The notes: generated by a model not told the origin, from the sequence alone. DNA of 6,716 nucleotides from Gemmatimonadota bacterium (GCA_002686955.1 NYZA01000105.1:1-6716); one strand, 5' to 3'; counted from the first letter of the stretch, positions 3-6,162 are shown. Numbers and translations are program-made.

Positions 3-275
3 TTCCTTCCGGGAAAGACACCACGCCCCATCGACTCGGCCGAGGTCGCAAAGATCCTCCGCAGACTCTTGCGGAGGCACTTCCCCGGCCAGAAGTTCTA
101 CGTCCAGTGGGTCGAGCTCAAGGGCGATCTTTTCAGCCGCCGGCGGCTCCTTTGCGGCACGCTCTGCTCGGGGCTTCGAAGGAGAGCGCTCGAGCTCGAC
201 GATGACTGGAGGCGGTCTGGAGGATCTCTTGGGACGCGGCCACCTCTCGAGCTTCAAACGAGGAGCGAGCGGTGA
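3..275 (+). CDS. 3' end of an ORF with an LPD29-like segment (5' end outside window)
   Basis: The frame is open from the first bases and stops at a TGA (273-275) that overlaps the GTG start of the next gene, so translational coupling is plausible. The first ~35 residues include IDSAEVAKILRRLLRRHFPG followed by QKFYV. This resembles the start of LPD29, a large-polyvalent-protein-associated domain (pattern: T/S-A-E-V-A-K-L-I-R, then FPG-x-KFSV). LPD domains are known from polyvalent proteins of phages and conjugative elements. The usual continuation of LPD29 (a GGSS-D-x-W-like strand pair) is not seen. Instead the tail is Arg- and Leu-rich and ends in RSER. Either the domain is divergent or the 3' part is frameshifted: another frame gives a Glu-rich tail from about 135 to 324. 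A TTG at 69 is an internal start only and is unlikely to be the real one. The match is from memory of the motif, not a search. Confidence 0.5.
   Translation, partial: FLPGKTPRPIDSAEVAKILRRLLRRHFPGQKFYVQWVELKGDLFSRRRLLCGTLCSGLRRRALELDDDWRRSGGSLGTRPPLELQTRSER
261..265 (+). promoter_or_regulatory. Shine-Dalgarno site for the ATPase gene
   Basis: AGGAG lies six bases before the GTG at 272. It sits inside the end of the upstream ORF and supports this GTG as the start rather than a later ATG. Confidence 0.7.
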
Positions 276-1771
276 AGAAGAAGCGACGCAGGAGCAAGGC
301 TCAGAGATTCGCAGCGCTCGATGAGCTAAACCAAGGCGGCGGGAACGACGAAGAGATCCTCACGGCGATCTCCGATGAGGCGATCCTCTTCCACACCCCC
401 AGCCGAGAGAGCTTCGCCTCCGTTCCGGTGGGGAAGCACCGGGAGAACTGGCCGGTCCAGTCGAAGGAGTTTGCGCTCTGGCTCACCAAGAGGTTCTTTG
501 ATGAGCGCCACCGGGCGCCGAACCCGGCGCTCCTTAGAGAAACCCTCTACCAGATCGACGCACGAGCACAGTTCGGGGCGCGAGAGGAGGAGGTATTCCT
601 GCGTGTTGCCGGAGATGCGCGAAAAATTTCCGTCGACCTCTGCGACCCACAGTGGCGACTCATCGAAGTAAGCCGCAGAGGCTGGAAGATCGTCGCGCGG
701 CCGACGGTGCGCTTCCGTCGGGCTCCCGGCATGCTTCCCCTCCCGAGCCCTTCCCCCCGAGGCTCCATCGAAGAGCTCCGGCCCTTCCTCAACCTGCGCC
801 CCGCTTGCCCTCCGGCTGATGACTGGTACCTGCTGATCGCCTGGCTCACCGCGGCGCTCCGTCCCCGCGGACCATACCCGATCCTCATCCTCGGCGGCGA
901 GCAGGGCACGGGGAAGAGTACCACGGCGCGGCTCCTCAGGGCGCTCATCGACCCGAACACGGTCCCGCTCCGTCGCCCGACTCGCGATGAGCGCGATCTC
1001 ATGATCGCCGCGGGAAACTCGTGGCTCGTGAGCATGGACAACCTCTCGCGGATCGGCACGCGCTTCAGCGACTCTCTCTGCGCCCTCTCGACCGGCGGCG
1101 GCTTCTCGACCCGAAAGCTCTTCTCCGATGCCGATGAGGCGCTCTTCTCAGCCCAGCGGCCGGTGCTCCTCAACGGCATCGACGACCTCGCCGAGCGCGG
1201 CGACCTGCTGGACCGAAGCCTGTTGGTGAGCCTGCCCAGGGTCGCCGAGAGGAAGCGCCTGGCCGAGGAGACGCTCTGGCGGCGCTTCGAGAAGGCCTAT
1301 CCGGCGATCTTCTCAGGCGTCCTCGAGACTTTGAGTCGAGCTCTCGGAGAGCTTTCGCGGGTGCGGCTCCGGACTCTTCCCCGCATGGCGGACTTTGCCC
1401 GCTGGGGAGTGGCGTGCGAACGGGCGCTCGGCTGGCCCGAGGGCACGTTCCTCGCCGCCTACGAGCGCAACCTCAGAGCGGCGAACGATCAAGCGATCGA
1501 GGCCTCGAGTCTGGGGCCGGTGATCGTCGAGTACGTCGCGAGCCAGCCCCGCTCGCGCTGGGTGGGCACCTCGGGCGAGCTCCTCGAGGGGCTCCTGCAG
1601 CATGCCGGCAGGCGTGCGGGAGGAGATCGCCACTGGCCGCGGAGCCCACAGCAGCTGGGGCAGCTCCTTCGGCGTCTGGGGGTGAACCTGCGCCGAGGCG
1701 GCTTCGAGATCCGCTACTGGCGCCAGGGCAAGCAGAGCACCCGCATGGTCTCGATCAGGAAGGTGGGCTGA
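272..1771 (+). CDS. P-loop ATPase of the D5/prim-pol-associated type (replication helicase-like), 499 aa
   Basis: This is a probable replicative helicase-like ATPase of mobile elements. The N-terminus is very basic (MKKKRRRSK). Residues ~65-160 match the region that precedes the ATPase in this family: a short helical part, then D-L-x-D-x-x-W-x-x-I-E-V, then V-R-F-R-R-x-P-G-M-x-P-L-P. The ATPase core has Walker A GEQGTGKST (209-217, Lys215), a Walker-B-like strand WLVSMDN (251-257, Asp256) and STGGGFSTRKL (273-283). A sensor-1-like VLLNGI follows (298-303, Asn301), then an Arg-finger-like LLDRSL (312-317, Arg315). The last ~90 residues look like a winged-helix module. This type of ATPase is often fused to or paired with a prim-pol primase in phages and integrative elements; no primase domain is present here. 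The start overlaps the upstream stop (GTGA), and ku follows 70 bases later, suggesting one transcript. The biochemical role is inferred from family resemblance. Confidence 0.87.
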   Translation: MKKKRRRSKAQRFAALDELNQGGGNDEEILTAISDEAILFHTPSRESFASVPVGKHRENWPVQSKEFALWLTKRFFDERHRAPNPALLRETLYQIDARAQFGAREEEVFLRVAGDARKISVDLCDPQWRLIEVSRRGWKIVARPTVRFRRAPGMLPLPSPSPRGSIEELRPFLNLRPACPPADDWYLLIAWLTAALRPRGPYPILILGGEQGTGKSTTARLLRALIDPNTVPLRRPTRDERDLMIAAGNSWLVSMDNLSRIGTRFSDSLCALSTGGGFSTRKLFSDADEALFSAQRPVLLNGIDDLAERGDLLDRSLLVSLPRVAERKRLAEETLWRRFEKAYPAIFSGVLETLSRALGELSRVRLRTLPRMADFARWGVACERALGWPEGTFLAAYERNLRAANDQAIEASSLGPVIVEYVASQPRSRWVGTSGELLEGLLQHAGRRAGGDRHWPRSPQQLGQLLRRLGVNLRRGGFEIRYWRQGKQSTRMVSIRKVG

Positions 1772-1826
1772 AGGAAGGATGCGTAGGAGAACGACGATTG
1801 GAAGTGATAGAAGGCCCCGAAGCACC

Positions 1827-1834
1827 AAGGAGGT
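1827..1834 (+). promoter_or_regulatory. Shine-Dalgarno site that sets the ku start
   Basis: AAGGAGGT, a near-perfect anti-16S complement, lies seven bases before the ATG at 1842. An in-frame ATG at 1779 would add 21 residues that do not look like Ku, and its purine-rich stretch (1771-1778) directly abuts the ATG, which is too close. The 1842 start is therefore preferred. Confidence 0.85.
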
Positions 1835-1841
1835 ACGCAGC

Positions 1842-2726
1842 ATGAGTGCCCGCGCAAGTTGGAAAGGATTCCTCAGGATCTGTCTCGTCTCGATCCCCGT
1901 TAAGGCCTACAGCGCTGCGGCCAGCGGCTCGAAGATCCACCTTAATCAGCTCCACCGCGATTGCCACAGCCCGATCAAGTACCGAAAGGTCTGTCCCGTT
2001 CACGGCGAGGTCGAGGGCGAGTCCATCGTCTCGGGCTACCACTACGCCAAGGGCCGCTACGTGGTGATCGACTCCGACGAGCTCGAGAAGCTCCGTCGCG
2101 AGAGCGACAAGGTGGTGGAGGTCGAAGGGTTTCTTCCCAAAAACGCGGTCGACGCGCTCTACCTCTGCGGGAAGGACTACTTCCTCGTCCCTGAGGGGCC
2201 CGTGGGGCAGAAGGCCTATCGGCTCATCCGAGAGGTCATGACCGAGAGGGGCCAGAGCGCGCTCGGAAAGATCGTCCTCACGGGCCGCGAGCAAATTGTT
2301 CTCCTGCGGCCCCTCGGGCGCCTCTTCGTCATGTCGGTCCTCAGCTACTCCGGCGAGGTCAAGGACCCCACGGCCTTCGAAGACGAGGTCGAGGAGGGGG
2401 CGATCGCAGCCCCAGAGCTTGAGCTTGCCGGGAAGCTCCTCGACGCGGCCAGCCTCGATACGTACGACCCCGCCGGCTACAGGAACGAGTACACCGAGCG
2501 GCTCACCGAGCTCATCGAGGCGAAGGTGTCAGGTAAGGAGATCGTCCGAGCGCCGGCGCCGGAGGAGCCGCAGGTGATCGAGCTCCTGGAGGCTCTGCGC
2601 TCGAGCGTCGCCCGTACGCAGAAGGCGCAGGCACGGACTCCTCGCAAGAGGACCGCGGCGAAGAAAGTGGCGCCGAGCGCCCGAGCGAAGCGGACGGCGT
2701 CCGCGCGCAAGCGAAAGACCGGCTGA
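1842..2726 (+). CDS. ku: Ku, DNA-end-binding protein of bacterial NHEJ, 294 aa
   Basis: Bacterial Ku forms a homodimeric ring that threads onto double-strand break ends and recruits the NHEJ ligase. The typical Ku opening is clear: SWKGFLRICLVSIPVKAYSA (6-25), then the HLNQLH segment (33-38), IKYRKVCPVHGEV (45-57), and GYHYAKGRYVVI-D-x-D-E-L (65-81). Further core signatures are KDYFLVPEGP (111-120), AYRLIREVM (125-133), GREQIVLLRPLG (148-159) and the D-x-Y-x-x-E-Y-T-E-R-L-T-E-L-I-E-A-K helix (about 209-228). Residues 244-256 (QVIELLEALRSSV) match the conserved short C-terminal helix after the core. The end is a basic tail (261-294, 14 Lys/Arg of 34), a feature known in some bacterial Kus, where such tails bind DNA. 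The length is normal. The Cys-Pro-Val-His form replaces the more usual Cys-x-x-Cys. The gene lies 70 bases after the ATPase gene and 73 bases before the ligase start, all on the same strand, so co-transcription is likely. Confidence 0.96.
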   Translation: MSARASWKGFLRICLVSIPVKAYSAAASGSKIHLNQLHRDCHSPIKYRKVCPVHGEVEGESIVSGYHYAKGRYVVIDSDELEKLRRESDKVVEVEGFLPKNAVDALYLCGKDYFLVPEGPVGQKAYRLIREVMTERGQSALGKIVLTGREQIVLLRPLGRLFVMSVLSYSGEVKDPTAFEDEVEEGAIAAPELELAGKLLDAASLDTYDPAGYRNEYTERLTELIEAKVSGKEIVRAPAPEEPQVIELLEALRSSVARTQKAQARTPRKRTAAKKVAPSARAKRTASARKRKTG

Positions 2727-2743
2727 AGCTACAACGGCGTCCT

Positions 2744-2780
2744 TGCGGCTGCGCTCCGGTCCCTGTGGGGCGCAGCCGCA
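2744..2780 (+). repeat. Strong inverted repeat (hairpin) between ku and the ligase gene
   Basis: TGCGGCTGCGC (2744-2754) pairs perfectly with GCGCAGCCGCA (2770-2780) across a 15-base loop, and the stem can be extended inward by a G-U and a C-G pair. It ends four bases before the ligase Shine-Dalgarno sequence. No T-tract follows, so it is not a classical intrinsic terminator. It could be an RNA-stability or attenuation element that sets the ligase-to-Ku ratio, or a protein-binding site. The pairing is seen directly; the role is inference. Confidence 0.7.
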
Positions 2781-2785
2781 GGCTG

Positions 2786-2792
2786 GAAGGAG
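2786..2792 (+). promoter_or_regulatory. Shine-Dalgarno site that sets the ligase TTG start
   Basis: GAAGGAG lies seven bases before the TTG at 2800. The reading frame is open further upstream, but that part encodes the hairpin and this ribosome-binding site and has no ligase-like residues. An ATG at 2795 is out of frame and reads only two codons. Confidence 0.7.
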
Positions 2793-2799
2793 AGATGAG

Positions 2800-3729
2800 T
2801 TGACCCTCGAAAAGGAGCTCCCCGCGTTCGTCTCGCCCATGCTGGCGCGAGCCTCCGAACCCTTCGATTCCGACCATTACCTCTTCGAGCTCAAATGGGA
2901 CGGCATCCGGGCGCTCGTCTTTCGCGACCGGGACGGGTACCGGATCAGGAACCGCCACGGGGTCGACATCACCTGCCGCTATCCCGAATTCGAGTGCTTC
3001 ACAGGGCTCGAGAAGGGAGCGGTCCTTGACGGTGAGATCGTGGTCCTCAGGGACGGGAAGCCGGACTTTTCTCTCCTCGAGTCGCGCGACAAATCCGCGA
3101 GCGCACTCCGTCAGCGCACGTCGGCGAGTGCCTATAGGGCGACCTTCATCGCCTTCGACCAGCTCTACACGCGTTACCGCTCGCTCGTAGGGGAGACGCT
3201 CCAGGAGCGCCGCAGGTCTCTTGAGGAGACGGTCGCCGCGCTCTCCCAAGCAGCCCGCCTCATCTTTTCTGAGGGCGTCGTGGGCGGCGGCGTGAGACTC
3301 TTCGACGAGGTCTCGCGCCAAGGGCTCGAGGGCGTCATGGCAAAACGGCTCGGCAGTCGCTACCACCCCGGGAAGCGCCATCGCGCCTGGCTGAAGATCA
3401 AGCCGAAGCACAGGCTCGTTTGCTCCATCATGGGTTTCGTGCCCGCCGCCGACGGTGGCTTCAAATGCCTCGTCCTCGCCGCCGAGGAGGACGGAGAGCT
3501 CCGCTCGGTCGGGCGAGTCACGAGCGGCTTCACCGCGCCGGTCCGAAGGCGCCTGAGCGCTCTCCTTTGGCGGAGGCGTCGTCCGAGCCCGCTCGTCTCT
3601 TGCCCGAGCCGTGCCCGGTGGGTCGAACCAGGACTCTACTGCACCGTGAGGTACCTGGGGCGCACACGGAGGGGGAGCCTTCGAAACCCGGTTTTCGAGC
3701 GGCTTATCGTCGAGGAGGAAGTCGGTTGA
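2800..3729 (+). CDS. LigD-type ATP-dependent DNA ligase, ligase domain only, 309 aa
   Basis: It seals nicks and ends by lysine adenylation, and next to ku it is very probably the NHEJ ligase. The order of motifs is complete. PMLA is at 13-16. Motif I is ELKWDGIRA (30-38) with adenylated Lys32. The motif-Ia-like R-N-R-H-G-V-D-I-T spans 50-58. Motif III is LDGEIVV (76-82, Glu79), and IIIa-like TFIAFDQLY is at 115-123. Motif IV is EGVMAK (177-182) and motif V is WLKIKP (197-202). The remaining ~105 residues form the OB-fold part, with VGRVTSGF, RARWVEPGL and a G-x-L-R-N-P-V-F-E-R-L end typical of LigD/LigC ligases. No polymerase or phosphoesterase domain is fused, so it is a stand-alone ligase rather than full LigD. 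The start is TTG, chosen by its ribosome-binding site. All catalytic motifs look intact. Low-level expression through the TTG and the upstream hairpin is possible. Confidence 0.94.
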   Translation: MTLEKELPAFVSPMLARASEPFDSDHYLFELKWDGIRALVFRDRDGYRIRNRHGVDITCRYPEFECFTGLEKGAVLDGEIVVLRDGKPDFSLLESRDKSASALRQRTSASAYRATFIAFDQLYTRYRSLVGETLQERRRSLEETVAALSQAARLIFSEGVVGGGVRLFDEVSRQGLEGVMAKRLGSRYHPGKRHRAWLKIKPKHRLVCSIMGFVPAADGGFKCLVLAAEEDGELRSVGRVTSGFTAPVRRRLSALLWRRRRPSPLVSCPSRARWVEPGLYCTVRYLGRTRRGSLRNPVFERLIVEEEVG

Positions 3730-3736
3730 GAGGGGA

Positions 3737-3751
3737 GGCGCCCTTCGCGCC
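3737..3751 (+). terminator. Weak hairpin after the ligase gene
   Basis: GGCGC (3737-3741) and GCGCC (3747-3751) form a 5-bp stem with a CCTTC loop eight bases after the ligase stop. There is no T-run, so termination function is uncertain. Confidence 0.25.
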
Positions 3752-3769
3752 ACCGGTGCGTGACCGTCT

Positions 3770-3785
3770 GGTATTTCGGTATTTC
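3770..3785 (+). repeat. Tandem 8-base repeat, two copies of GGTATTTC
   Basis: Two exact adjacent copies of GGTATTTC lie about 40 bases after the ligase stop. They may be a simple slippage product or a paired binding site; nothing else supports a function. Confidence 0.5.
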
Positions 3786-3988
3786 AGGTTTCCGACCCCC
3801 GCGGTACCCCACCGTCGAGGACTTCCCACCCTGCGTACCACATGAAAGGTTTCACCAGCATGGACGAGACGACTTGACGGGGAAGCCTCGCACGAAGACG
3901 GCGAGTCGGGGCGCGGTGCTACAACGGTGACTGTGCGGCGGGAAGCGAGAGGATTTCCCGAGATACGAACCCGCTGAAGGGATGCAAT

Positions 3989-4219
3989 TTGAACCGTAAC
4001 TGCCACTACTGCGGCGAACCAGCGGAGACCTGGATTGACGAGATCACAATCATGAGTCCGACCGCCTGTAGCGCGCCGGAGAAGTTCTCCAGAGCGGTCA
4101 CGACGGCGGGCGGTCTGCGCCGCCTGTGCCTCGATAAAGTTGGTGTCTCTCGAAACCGATGCTTCATGGCAGCGAGTATCACAGCATCGCGACGTCGCAA
4201 CGTCGCATTGACCGCCTGA
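3989..4219 (+). pseudogene. Possible remnant of a CxxC zinc-knuckle / HNH-like protein
   Basis: From a TTG at 3989 the frame reads NRNCHYCGEPAETWID, which resembles the opening of small HNH endonucleases (C-x-Y-C-G-x-P-A-x-T-x-D-H). The expected His after Asp and the rest of the HNH core are missing in this frame. A neighbouring frame around 4095-4210 contains VCAACASIK followed by a charged stretch, which could be the second Cys pair and the C-terminal helix of such a protein after a frameshift. No clear Shine-Dalgarno site precedes the TTG. I treat it as a possible decayed gene. It may equally be a chance ORF. Confidence 0.25.
4189..4198. repeat. 10-bp palindrome GCGACGTCGC with an adjacent half site
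   Basis: A perfect palindrome (4189-4198) is followed by ACGTCGC (4200-4206). It lies about 30 bases upstream of the small membrane ORF, a position suitable for an operator. The nearby XRE gene suggests a possible binder, but this is inference. Confidence 0.35.
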
Positions 4220-4229
4220 TAGGTGACCG

Positions 4230-4409
4230 ATGGAACTGATTCTCGCCGCCTTACTCCTCCTTTGGCTCGGACGGAAGCCCCGAAACGAATCCGAACAGAT
4301 CGAACAGGGGTTATTGGCAGCGTTGCTGTTGATCGCCCTTACCATCGCTTTCGGCGCTTCGCTGGTGTGCAACGAAGAAGGGAACAGGACCAAGCCGCCA
4401 TCCTGCTGA
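4230..4409 (+). CDS. Small two-helix membrane protein, 59 aa
   Basis: I do not recognise a family. The ATG at 4230 is preceded by AGGTGA (4221-4226), a usable though closely spaced ribosome-binding site. The peptide has a short hydrophobic first segment (residues 3-13, LILAALLLLWL), a polar linker with R-K-P-R and several Glu (14-27), and a second hydrophobic segment (28-47, LLAALLLIALTIAFGASLVC). It ends in a short charged tail. The arrangement predicts a helical hairpin in the membrane. Such peptides are common as small toxins, holin-like proteins or accessory membrane proteins on mobile elements, but nothing here identifies which. It lies 25 bases upstream of a broken XRE regulator on the same strand. 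Overlapping frames on both strands are open but lack any such pattern. Confidence 0.5.
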   Translation: MELILAALLLLWLGRKPRNESEQIEQGLLAALLLIALTIAFGASLVCNEEGNRTKPPSC

Positions 4410-4434
4410 CCGGGGAACCAGTCGTCGGCGTGCC

Positions 4435-4648
4435 ATGATTTCTTTCGCCCCGCCATTTCTTCCTCAAGGCGAGCGGGTCAGGCGCGAACGTAAGCGCCTC
4501 GGACTGTCACAGGAAGACCTCGCCTTCGAGGCGGACTTGCACCGGACGTACATCGGCAGCGTTGAGCGCGGCGAACGGAACATCAGCCTGCTTCAAGGTC
4601 CACCGTCTCGCCAAGGCGCTCAAGGTCAAGCCAAGGGACCTGGTGTGA
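4435..4648 (+). pseudogene. XRE (Cro/C1-type HTH) transcriptional regulator, frameshifted
   Basis: Residues 12-53 from the ATG at 4435 form a standard HTH_XRE: GERVRRERKRLGLSQEDLAF, then EADLHRTYIGSVERGERNIS-LL. After Leu53 (codon 4591-4593) the frame loses sense. Reading +1 from 4598 restores the family ending VHRLAKALKVKPRDLV with a TGA at 4646-4648. One extra base (or two missing) between 4591 and 4598 explains this. The repaired protein would be about 70 residues, a normal size for a single-domain XRE repressor. In the unrepaired frame translation runs on to 4782 with unrelated residues. No good ribosome-binding site precedes the ATG. The break may be real decay or a base error in the assembly. 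Confidence 0.85.
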
Positions 4649-4774
4649 CGTTTTCCGACTTACCATTTCCAGGCTTTCCCGCGCTAACTCTTGTCTCGTC
4701 TCTCTCCTATTCGCAACGATCGTCATTCCGCATCTCGTCGGCTGTGGTGCTGTTCCACGTCGCCACCACGCTTC

Positions 4775-4793
4775 CGGCGTGAATTACACGCCG
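4775..4793. repeat. Inverted repeat CGGCGTG-N5-CACGCCG
   Basis: Seven-base arms (4775-4781 and 4787-4793) enclose AATTA. It forms a compact hairpin or an operator-like palindrome about 130 bases after the XRE remnant. No T-tract follows. Confidence 0.45.
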
Positions 4794-5183
4794 CAGGCGC
4801 GGAATCTCAACGACGACATGGAGGGATTAAGGAAAAGTCTTCGCCTCCTGTCGCTCGCAGCGAGTGAACATCGGTCGGCGGCAGGCGGGTTCTGGAAGTT
4901 CCTTGCATCCAAGGCTCTAACAGAAAACGAGTTGACGCTCCAGCAAGTTCGTCAGGAAGCCAGCAGACGCAGGGGCGCTCTTGCGCCTTTGAAAAAAGCG
5001 GAGAGGAGAAGGCGAGCTAAGCAGAAAGAAGCCGAGGCGGGGCTCCAGGTTTTTTTGGGCGCGGGGAACGCGACCCTTCCTCGCTCCGAATCGACTCTGT
5101 GCTCCCACGGCTTGCAGATTGACAGTAATCCAAGGGGAAGCCCGGAGTTGCGGAAATCGGAGGGGTTGAAAGCAGATTATTAA
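4779..5183 (+). CDS. Doubtful hypothetical ORF, basic and helical, up to 134 aa
   Basis: No family is recognised. The frame opens with a GTG inside the 4775-4793 inverted repeat. An ATG at 4818 is an alternative start, and neither has a clear ribosome-binding site. Roughly residues 15-95 could be helical, with a strongly charged stretch (RRR...KKAERRRRAKQKEAEAG). The C-terminal 40 residues are low in hydrophobic pattern and look like read-through. Codon third positions are less GC-biased than in the ATPase, Ku and ligase genes, so it may be a chance ORF or a decayed gene. Confidence 0.25.
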   Translation: MNYTPQARNLNDDMEGLRKSLRLLSLAASEHRSAAGGFWKFLASKALTENELTLQQVRQEASRRRGALAPLKKAERRRRAKQKEAEAGLQVFLGAGNATLPRSESTLCSHGLQIDSNPRGSPELRKSEGLKADY

Positions 5184-5273
5184 GGTTTTTCCCGAAATGT
5201 GCCTATTCTCGACAAGCCTATGGCTGCGGAATGTAAGGATCGAATCGGCCAGTCAAGAAGAACCCGTAAGCGT

Positions 5274-5293
5274 TTCTCGAGAAGCCTCGCGAG
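5274..5293. repeat. Two neighbouring palindromes, TTCTCGAGAA and CTCGCGAG
   Basis: A 10-bp palindrome (5274-5283) and an 8-bp palindrome (5286-5293) lie two bases apart, directly upstream of the twin hairpins. They share a CTCG core. They could be operator half-sites or parts of a folded RNA. Confidence 0.4.
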
Positions 5294-5309
5294 CAGTGAA
5301 TGCCCGATG

Positions 5310-5344
5310 GGGTACGGTGGTTACCCGGAGCTCGTAGAAAGCTC
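5310..5344 (+). repeat. Twin adjacent hairpins, each a 5-bp stem with a 7-base loop
   Basis: GGGTA (5310-5314) pairs with TACCC (5322-5326), loop CGGTGGT. GAGCT (5328-5332) pairs with AGCTC (5340-5344), loop CGTAGAA. Only one base separates them. The stem and loop sizes resemble tRNA arms, but the loops do not match T-loop or anticodon-loop consensus and no acceptor stem is visible. A structured RNA is possible but unproven. Confidence 0.4.
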
Positions 5345-5572
5345 TGCGGGATTAACGCCGCCACGACCCAAGCCGTAATTGCTGAGTCGCTGTGTCCCCC
5401 AGGCGCCGCTGATCTCATGCCACTAATCTCACGCCGTTAATTTTTACGCGTCAAATCCCGAGCCGTTAATCCCTGGCAAGGCAAGAGCTTCCGGAGCTTT
5501 CCGTGGCAAGCTTTGGGGGTTCTGGCCTATAGAGCTTTCTAGTTCTGCTGCGTTTCTCTTGACGCATCCGCC

Positions 5573-5590
5573 CGTCTGGATTGCCGGACG
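5573..5590. repeat. Hairpin with 7-bp stem and ATTG loop
   Basis: CGTCTGG (5573-5579) pairs with CCGGACG (5584-5590) with one G-U pair. No T-tract follows. Confidence 0.35.
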
Positions 5591-5896
5591 TAGGCCCGAA
5601 CTCGCAAAAGCGGCTCTGACAGCCAAACCGAACCGCTGCGTGAACTTGCGACTCAAAGTCCAAAGCCGTTAGCTTCCGTTGATTCCATCCTCAGTGGTGT
5701 CCGCAAATGGGCGCGAAACTATGTTGCTCCTCCATAGGGGGACCGAAGGTTCTGGGCATCGATTCGACGCGGGCTAAGCTGTCGTTCCCCTCTGTTTCCC
5801 GGGTTCACCGCATTGGTGCTCACGCGTGCGTGGGTAACTCAAGCTGCACAACGACCATGTGGCTTTGTCGATGGCGACGTTCACCGTTCACAGACC

Positions 5897-5941
5897 CGGA
5901 AATCGGTGTCCCACCGGTGGCCTATCGGGGAACCATTTCCG
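5897..5941. repeat. Inverted repeat enclosing a 10-bp palindrome
   Basis: CGGAAAT (5897-5903) pairs with ATTTCCG (5935-5941). Between the arms lies the palindrome CCACCGGTGG (5911-5920), and CGGTG (5904-5908) can pair with CACCG (5912-5916). Function is unknown. Confidence 0.35.
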
Positions 5942-6162
5942 TTTGGAAGTACCTTACCTTCCGGCAGGTCCGATTACGGCTCCAATGGATCGGAGCGCTC
6001 CTGGCAACGCTACTCTTGATCGACTCGCCTGGGACTCGTCGACGTCGCTGGAAACACCTTGAATTTGGGGAGGATACGGCGAACCATTGGTCGACCAAAG
6101 GGCTCGAGGAAGCGATCCTCAGGCACGCATCGTGCGGTTCAGCAAGGGCCTTGCGGCATGGG

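Follow-up and report, generated by a model that had tools for sequence, protein, structure and literature searches.

A predicted mobile-element helicase gene next to a nonconventional Ku-ligase pair: ordinary parts, not conserved as a whole

In the DNA analysed here, a single stretch of 6716 bp (hereafter, the window), a gene coding for a replication-type ATPase is followed by genes coding for Ku and for a DNA ligase. The original prediction proposed that the three genes form a conserved non-homologous end joining (NHEJ) unit carried by a mobile element. The question raised by this locus is whether such a unit exists, or whether two unrelated modules are simply neighbours. The window corresponds to an entire contig (G000:C105), cut on both sides, which comes from a bin of 4.28 Mb, made of 270 contigs and 84.5% complete.

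Inspection of the window showed that the three genes lie, with intact frames, in the predicted order and on the same strand (Table 1). They start with GTG, ATG and TTG codons, respectively, are all preceded by a good ribosome-binding site (AGGAG at 261-265 in the case of the ATPase gene, which codes for 499 residues), and are separated by 70 bp (ATPase-Ku) and 73 bp (Ku-ligase), in agreement with the short gaps originally described. As these gaps are small, the strand is shared and no terminator-like site was detected in between, the three genes could be co-transcribed. The long GC-rich hairpin contained in the gap between ku and the ligase gene has a modest z-score; the hypothesis that it is a dispersed repeat was rejected, because no copies were found in 480 kb of the bin. 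At the other side, the stop codon of the partial upstream ORF overlaps the start of the ATPase gene. The product of this ORF matched the Pfam LPD29 model with 20.6 bits (E = 7.6e-4), below the 27-bit cut-off, and no homologue of it was found beside other ATPases in the ATPase loci that were compared.

On the 3' side of the ligase gene, about 2.3 kb of DNA contain no convincing gene, save a frameshifted HTH gene, and are followed by a gene coding for an alpha/beta hydrolase. The frameshift of the HTH_3 regulator gene (4435-4648) is located near its 3' end, and the gene-poor stretch (3730-6080) has a lower GC content and resembles decayed element DNA. No integrase, relaxase, partition or capsid gene is present on the 6716-bp contig, which is itself cut on both sides, and no tRNA or Rfam element marking an integration site was found. 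Direct repeats were considered as candidate attachment sites and rejected, being weak, chance-like pairs; membership of a defence system was also rejected, since PADLOC gave no match.

Table 1. Position of the features identified in the window.
Feature	Position	Strand	Basis or remark
Partial upstream ORF	3..275	+	extends beyond the contig end; weak match to LPD29 (polyvalent-protein domain)
Predicted D5/SaPI primase-helicase-type replicative helicase ATPase, stand-alone, without primase domain	272..1771	+	structure model, conserved residues
Ribosome-binding site of ku, AAGGAGGT	1827..1834	+	sequence reading
ku, bacterial Ku, 294 aa, lysine-rich C-terminal tail	1842..2726	+	TIGR02772, PF02735, Ku grouping
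GC-rich stem-loop between ku and the ligase gene	2743..2781	+	fold z -2.11
Ribosome-binding site of the ligase gene, AAGGAG	2787..2792	+	sequence reading
Stand-alone LigD-type ATP-dependent DNA ligase, LIG only (adenylation + OB), 309 aa	2800..3729	+	PF01068, PF04679, TIGR02779

The ATPase is named by no Pfam or NCBIfam model. Among solved structures, the best match of its AlphaFold model (m4754fda21389; pLDDT 90.8, pTM 0.88) was the SaPI5 primase-helicase (7ola; Z 20.1, 384 residues), and the poxvirus E5/D5 helicase was matched with Z values of 18.9 (8wh6) and 18.7 (8apl). For this reason, the original label of D5/prim-pol-associated ATPase is right, as far as the fold is concerned. In a profile of 33 relatives, the Walker A K215, N257 and R315 are invariant and D256 is near-invariant; the three invariant residues, together with a fold shared over most of the model, place this protein among the D5/SaPI-type primase-helicases. 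The best match among viral models is a phage protein described as 'ATP-binding protein', which is 30% identical over 487 columns.

The relatives of the ATPase either stand alone or are fused to a Toprim domain, a CHC2 zinc finger, or a Prim-Pol or RepB primase. Small plasmids of Methanothrix, Methylobacterium and Streptomyces carry them (in Streptomyces the gene adjoins a prim-pol gene), as do larger plasmids, a Microbacterium phage and viral contigs. The 109 ORFs that neighbour these relatives in 21 loci include matches to serine resolvase (7), tyrosine integrase (5) and DNA methylase (6) families. A helicase function in mobile elements has been predicted for related AAA+ domains that are joined to primases (PMC5862659). 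The primase fusions, the occurrence on phages and plasmids and the integrase neighbours show that the ATPase was correctly attributed to a replication family of mobile elements, which is an uncharacterised family of D5/SaPI-type helicases. The window ATPase itself is predicted, from its sequence and its structure model, to be an active and hexameric replication helicase of this kind.

Bacterial Ku binds broken DNA ends and recruits a ligase. The Ku protein of the window, which is the only one in the bin, is a member of the TIGR02772 family, with which it aligned over the entire model (positions 1-259 of 259; 242.2 bits with respect to a cut-off of 150, E = 5.8e-72). It also matched PF02735 (144 bits, 7.4e-42) and, in a search of known structures, solved bacterial Ku proteins. 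In the Ku tree it falls inside a clade with 16 Planctomycetota Ku proteins (support 100/99). The ligase protein consists of the LIG domain alone and carries both the adenylation domain (PF01068, 4.3e-31) and the OB domain (PF04679, 3.4e-15), each over its cut-off. The ExKWDGxR motif is intact, and KWDG, E79, E177, K199 and K201 are invariant with respect to its relatives; the presence of both domains, with the KxDG and downstream motifs intact, identifies the protein as a LigD-type LIG module. Among proteins of known structure, the best match to its sequence is the ligase domain of M. tuberculosis LigD (1vs0). The alignment with TIGR02779 runs end to end, but its score of 205.4 bits (1.1e-60) does not reach the cut-off of 227.75, and therefore the ligase is to be considered a divergent relative of this family and not a proper member. 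No LigD polymerase (POL) domain was found in the bin, at 84.5% completeness.

The relatives of the pair were sought in a sample of 392 genomes of Planctomycetota, the phylum to which Singulisphaera sp. GP187 (locus L004) belongs. Ku was present in 46 of these genomes, the best proteins being 45-53% identical to the window Ku. When 16 planctomycete Ku loci were opened, ten of them (L137, L139, L141-L147 and L149) contained a gene coding for a LIG-only ligase after ku and on the same strand. These ligases are 43-48% identical to that of the window, and their genes mostly follow ku with no gap or at a distance of up to about 200 bp (about 840 bp in one case). The window-type ATPase is absent from all ten loci, and none of the 25 families listed near the pairs (TPR, MerR, trypsin, LigD domains and the like) is of integrase type. 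Given that its nearest relatives are adjacent Planctomycetota pairs, the window pair is an ordinary set of the nonconventional NHEJ class, which in bacteria consists of Ku and a LIG-domain ligase without POL, and in which LIG-only ligases are able to act in joining (PMC7719229). The proposal that Ku and ligase are a genuine NHEJ pair is upheld, with an activity that is predicted from sequence. No paper on NHEJ in Planctomycetota was found in the literature searched.

The three-gene arrangement was sought in both directions, by searching ATPase loci for Ku and ligase, and Ku and ligase loci for the ATPase, in collections of genomes, viral contigs, plasmids and phages. The ATPase-Ku-ligase order was found in none of about 80 ATPase loci, of more than 100 Ku or ligase loci and of the 392 genomes. 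Neither Ku nor ligase lay close to 20 ATPase loci of GTDB genomes, to five viral and four plasmid ATPase loci, or to further viral (with the exception of L132, described below) and Planctomycetota ATPase loci. When 16 ATPase-bearing genomes or records were searched as a whole, Ku was absent in 12 and was encoded elsewhere in the other four. The ATPase is present in 31 of the 392 Planctomycetota genomes, and it occurs together with Ku in two, on different contigs, as compared to 3.6 expected by chance (Fisher p = 0.56). The window-family ATPase was found near the ligase in none of the best 80 of 276 candidate viral contigs with a LigD-type ligase, and in none of 15 viral contigs with Ku, which were identified with an alignment of close Ku proteins. 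A conserved three-gene unit was rejected on this basis. Since the arrangement was seen in no further genome or virus record among those searched, the trio looks like a one-off neighbourhood and not like a new repair system: its parts are ordinary, and as a whole it is not conserved. As regards the original reading, the element ATPase and the NHEJ pair stand, while the pair as a conserved part of the element is not borne out, the three genes being neighbours in this genome alone among the collections searched.

Ku and ligase genes were nonetheless encountered in mobile genomes. An apparently complete 79-kb prophage (L132, IMGVR_UViG_2654587921_000002), which has genes for capsid, portal, tail sheath, integrase and FtsK, contains a Ku gene at 4.7 kb from a distant relative of the window ATPase, and no ligase. 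Within about 7 kb of this prophage (4326-11347), Ku, an FtsK-like ATPase and the window-family helicase ATPase are all encoded. Among the best 80 of the 276 viral contigs with a LigD-type ligase, only two had Ku close by, and in the contigs L197 and L198 the two genes are adjacent. In L198 (IMGVR_UViG_3300047160_024602), the Ku-ligase pair (38% and 41% identity) lies beside a large serine recombinase at the contig end; it may be element-borne, being located either inside or just outside the element. The region 6146-10615 of this contig contains genes for a DUF2924 protein and the serine recombinase, then the pair, with terminase-like and ParB-methylase genes upstream. Ku matches were also obtained on 690 plasmids, and phage Ku proteins are 28-31% identical to the window Ku. 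In the literature, NHEJ genes have been described on plasmids in 60 genomes (PMC7719229), kuC is plasmid-borne in Streptomyces (PMC5124664), and phage Ku, as in mycobacteriophage Corndog, has been linked to genome circularisation (PMC4351075). Considering these reports of plasmid-borne NHEJ and of phage Ku, mobile NHEJ genes are in themselves not new.

The contig may be misbinned, given that it is not typical of its bin and that the hydrolase encoded at its end shares 60% identity with that of a planctomycete (G513). In the family mate of the bin (G001), the hydrolase match was 33% over a short stretch (E 7e-4), and in the other families sampled it was at best E 6e-30. The tetranucleotide profile of the contig falls at the 2.5th percentile of size-matched pieces of the bin, with a correlation of 0.59 with G513 as compared to 0.46 with the bin, and the nearest relatives of Ku, ligase and ATPase are all in Planctomycetota. 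However, this phylum was sampled more deeply than other groups, the total GC content fits the bin, and the left 3.7 kb are in its range (17th percentile). We consider the chances evenly balanced that the contig derives from a planctomycete and was wrongly binned, in which case the gene order would be that of an unsampled planctomycete and would tell nothing of the phylum of the bin itself. This reading is compatible with the explanation that we favour below.

We think it probable, though with some reserve, that an element helicase and a nonconventional NHEJ pair of known kind lie here as two unrelated modules side by side. The helicase, of the D5/SaPI-PriRep type, would form a hexamer that unwinds DNA for element replication, with a primase encoded elsewhere, and would take no part in end joining. 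Ku and the ligase would join ends without it, as a minimal planctomycete-type pair: Ku would slide onto broken ends, which would then be sealed by the LIG-only ligase, a protein that has neither a polymerase nor a phosphoesterase domain. The modules may have come together when an element inserted beside the pair, or when the pair was captured as cargo. What the analysis demonstrates is the identity of the genes, the helicase fold of the ATPase, the integrity of the conserved motifs, the ancestry of the pair and the absence of a conserved linkage in the collections searched; the enzymatic activity of the proteins and the independence of the two modules are inferred. Several observations favour this explanation: the closest Ku-ligase relatives are paired without the ATPase in ten Planctomycetota loci; the ATPase relatives adjoin recombinases, integrases and methylases, are fused to primases and reside on plasmids and phages; only two planctomycete genomes combine Ku and ATPase, on separate contigs; and Ku is missing from 12 of the 16 ATPase-bearing genomes or records. 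On the other hand, the tight spacing on one strand and the possible co-transcription speak against it, as do the presence of Ku and a same-family ATPase in the prophage L132 and the serine recombinase that adjoins the pair in L198. In addition, rarer conserved cases may exist beyond the genomes, viral contigs, plasmids and phages searched.

The short gaps and the common strand, as well as the overlap of the ATPase gene with an ORF that weakly matches an element-type domain, would also agree with a different origin, possible but doubtful in our opinion. In this view, the window would stem from a plasmid, phage or integrative element whose Ku and ligase circularise or repair its own DNA, by analogy with the presumed use of Ku by Corndog (PMC4351075), here with a ligase of its own. 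The Corndog precedent, the true prophage L132 and the adjacent genes of L197 and L198 point in this direction, whereas the contig lacks genes for an integrase, a relaxase, partition or a capsid, no second case of the arrangement came up in the collections searched, the genes around the closest Ku-ligase relatives are not of the mobile-element type, and the ligase gene is followed by gene-poor DNA and then by an ordinary hydrolase gene. That the pair rides on an element at all seems to us rather doubtful, and we hold it unlikely that a planctomycete-type element carries a self-sufficient Ku and ligase, transcribed with its own replicative helicase, and mends or closes its own ends by this means. 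Were the pair such cargo, the phage-Ku idea, in which a virus or plasmid recruits the end joining of its host, would be extended to an element equipped with Ku and ligase alike; otherwise, the useful by-products of this analysis are a well-defined collection of neighbouring Ku and ligase genes in Planctomycetota and the uncharacterised helicase family described above. Apart from gene order and spacing, nothing argues for a three-part machine, with the helicase unwinding or remodelling ends for Ku and ligase. This new, helicase-assisted NHEJ is highly improbable, considering that the unit recurs in no collection searched, that the ATPase family is tied to primases and not to repair genes, and that the two genes are unlinked in the two of 392 genomes that have both.

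Going back to the two modules, each has counterparts among known systems. The ATPase fold is alike, over nearly its whole length, to those of the SaPI5 primase-helicase (PriRep1 type) and of poxvirus D5/E5; with respect to these, the window protein is 8-12% identical, has no primase domain and belongs to a bacterium or its element. The locus resembles that of phage Ku (Corndog and others) in having Ku near replication genes, as in a mobile genome, but in Corndog the phage supplies Ku, whereas in the window ku is followed by a ligase gene and there are no phage genes. The Planctomycetota Ku-ligase pairs have the same order and strand as in the window (Ku about 41-53% and ligase 43-48% identical); they lack the ATPase, and in some of their genomes a full LigD is encoded nearby, in contrast to the bin of the window, where LigD POL was not found. 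Finally, the pair is like the nonconventional NHEJ sets made of Ku and LIG without POL or PE (PMC7719229), the two genes being adjacent and on the same strand and the motifs intact: nothing essential differs, and what distinguishes the window is its upstream neighbour, a predicted element helicase.
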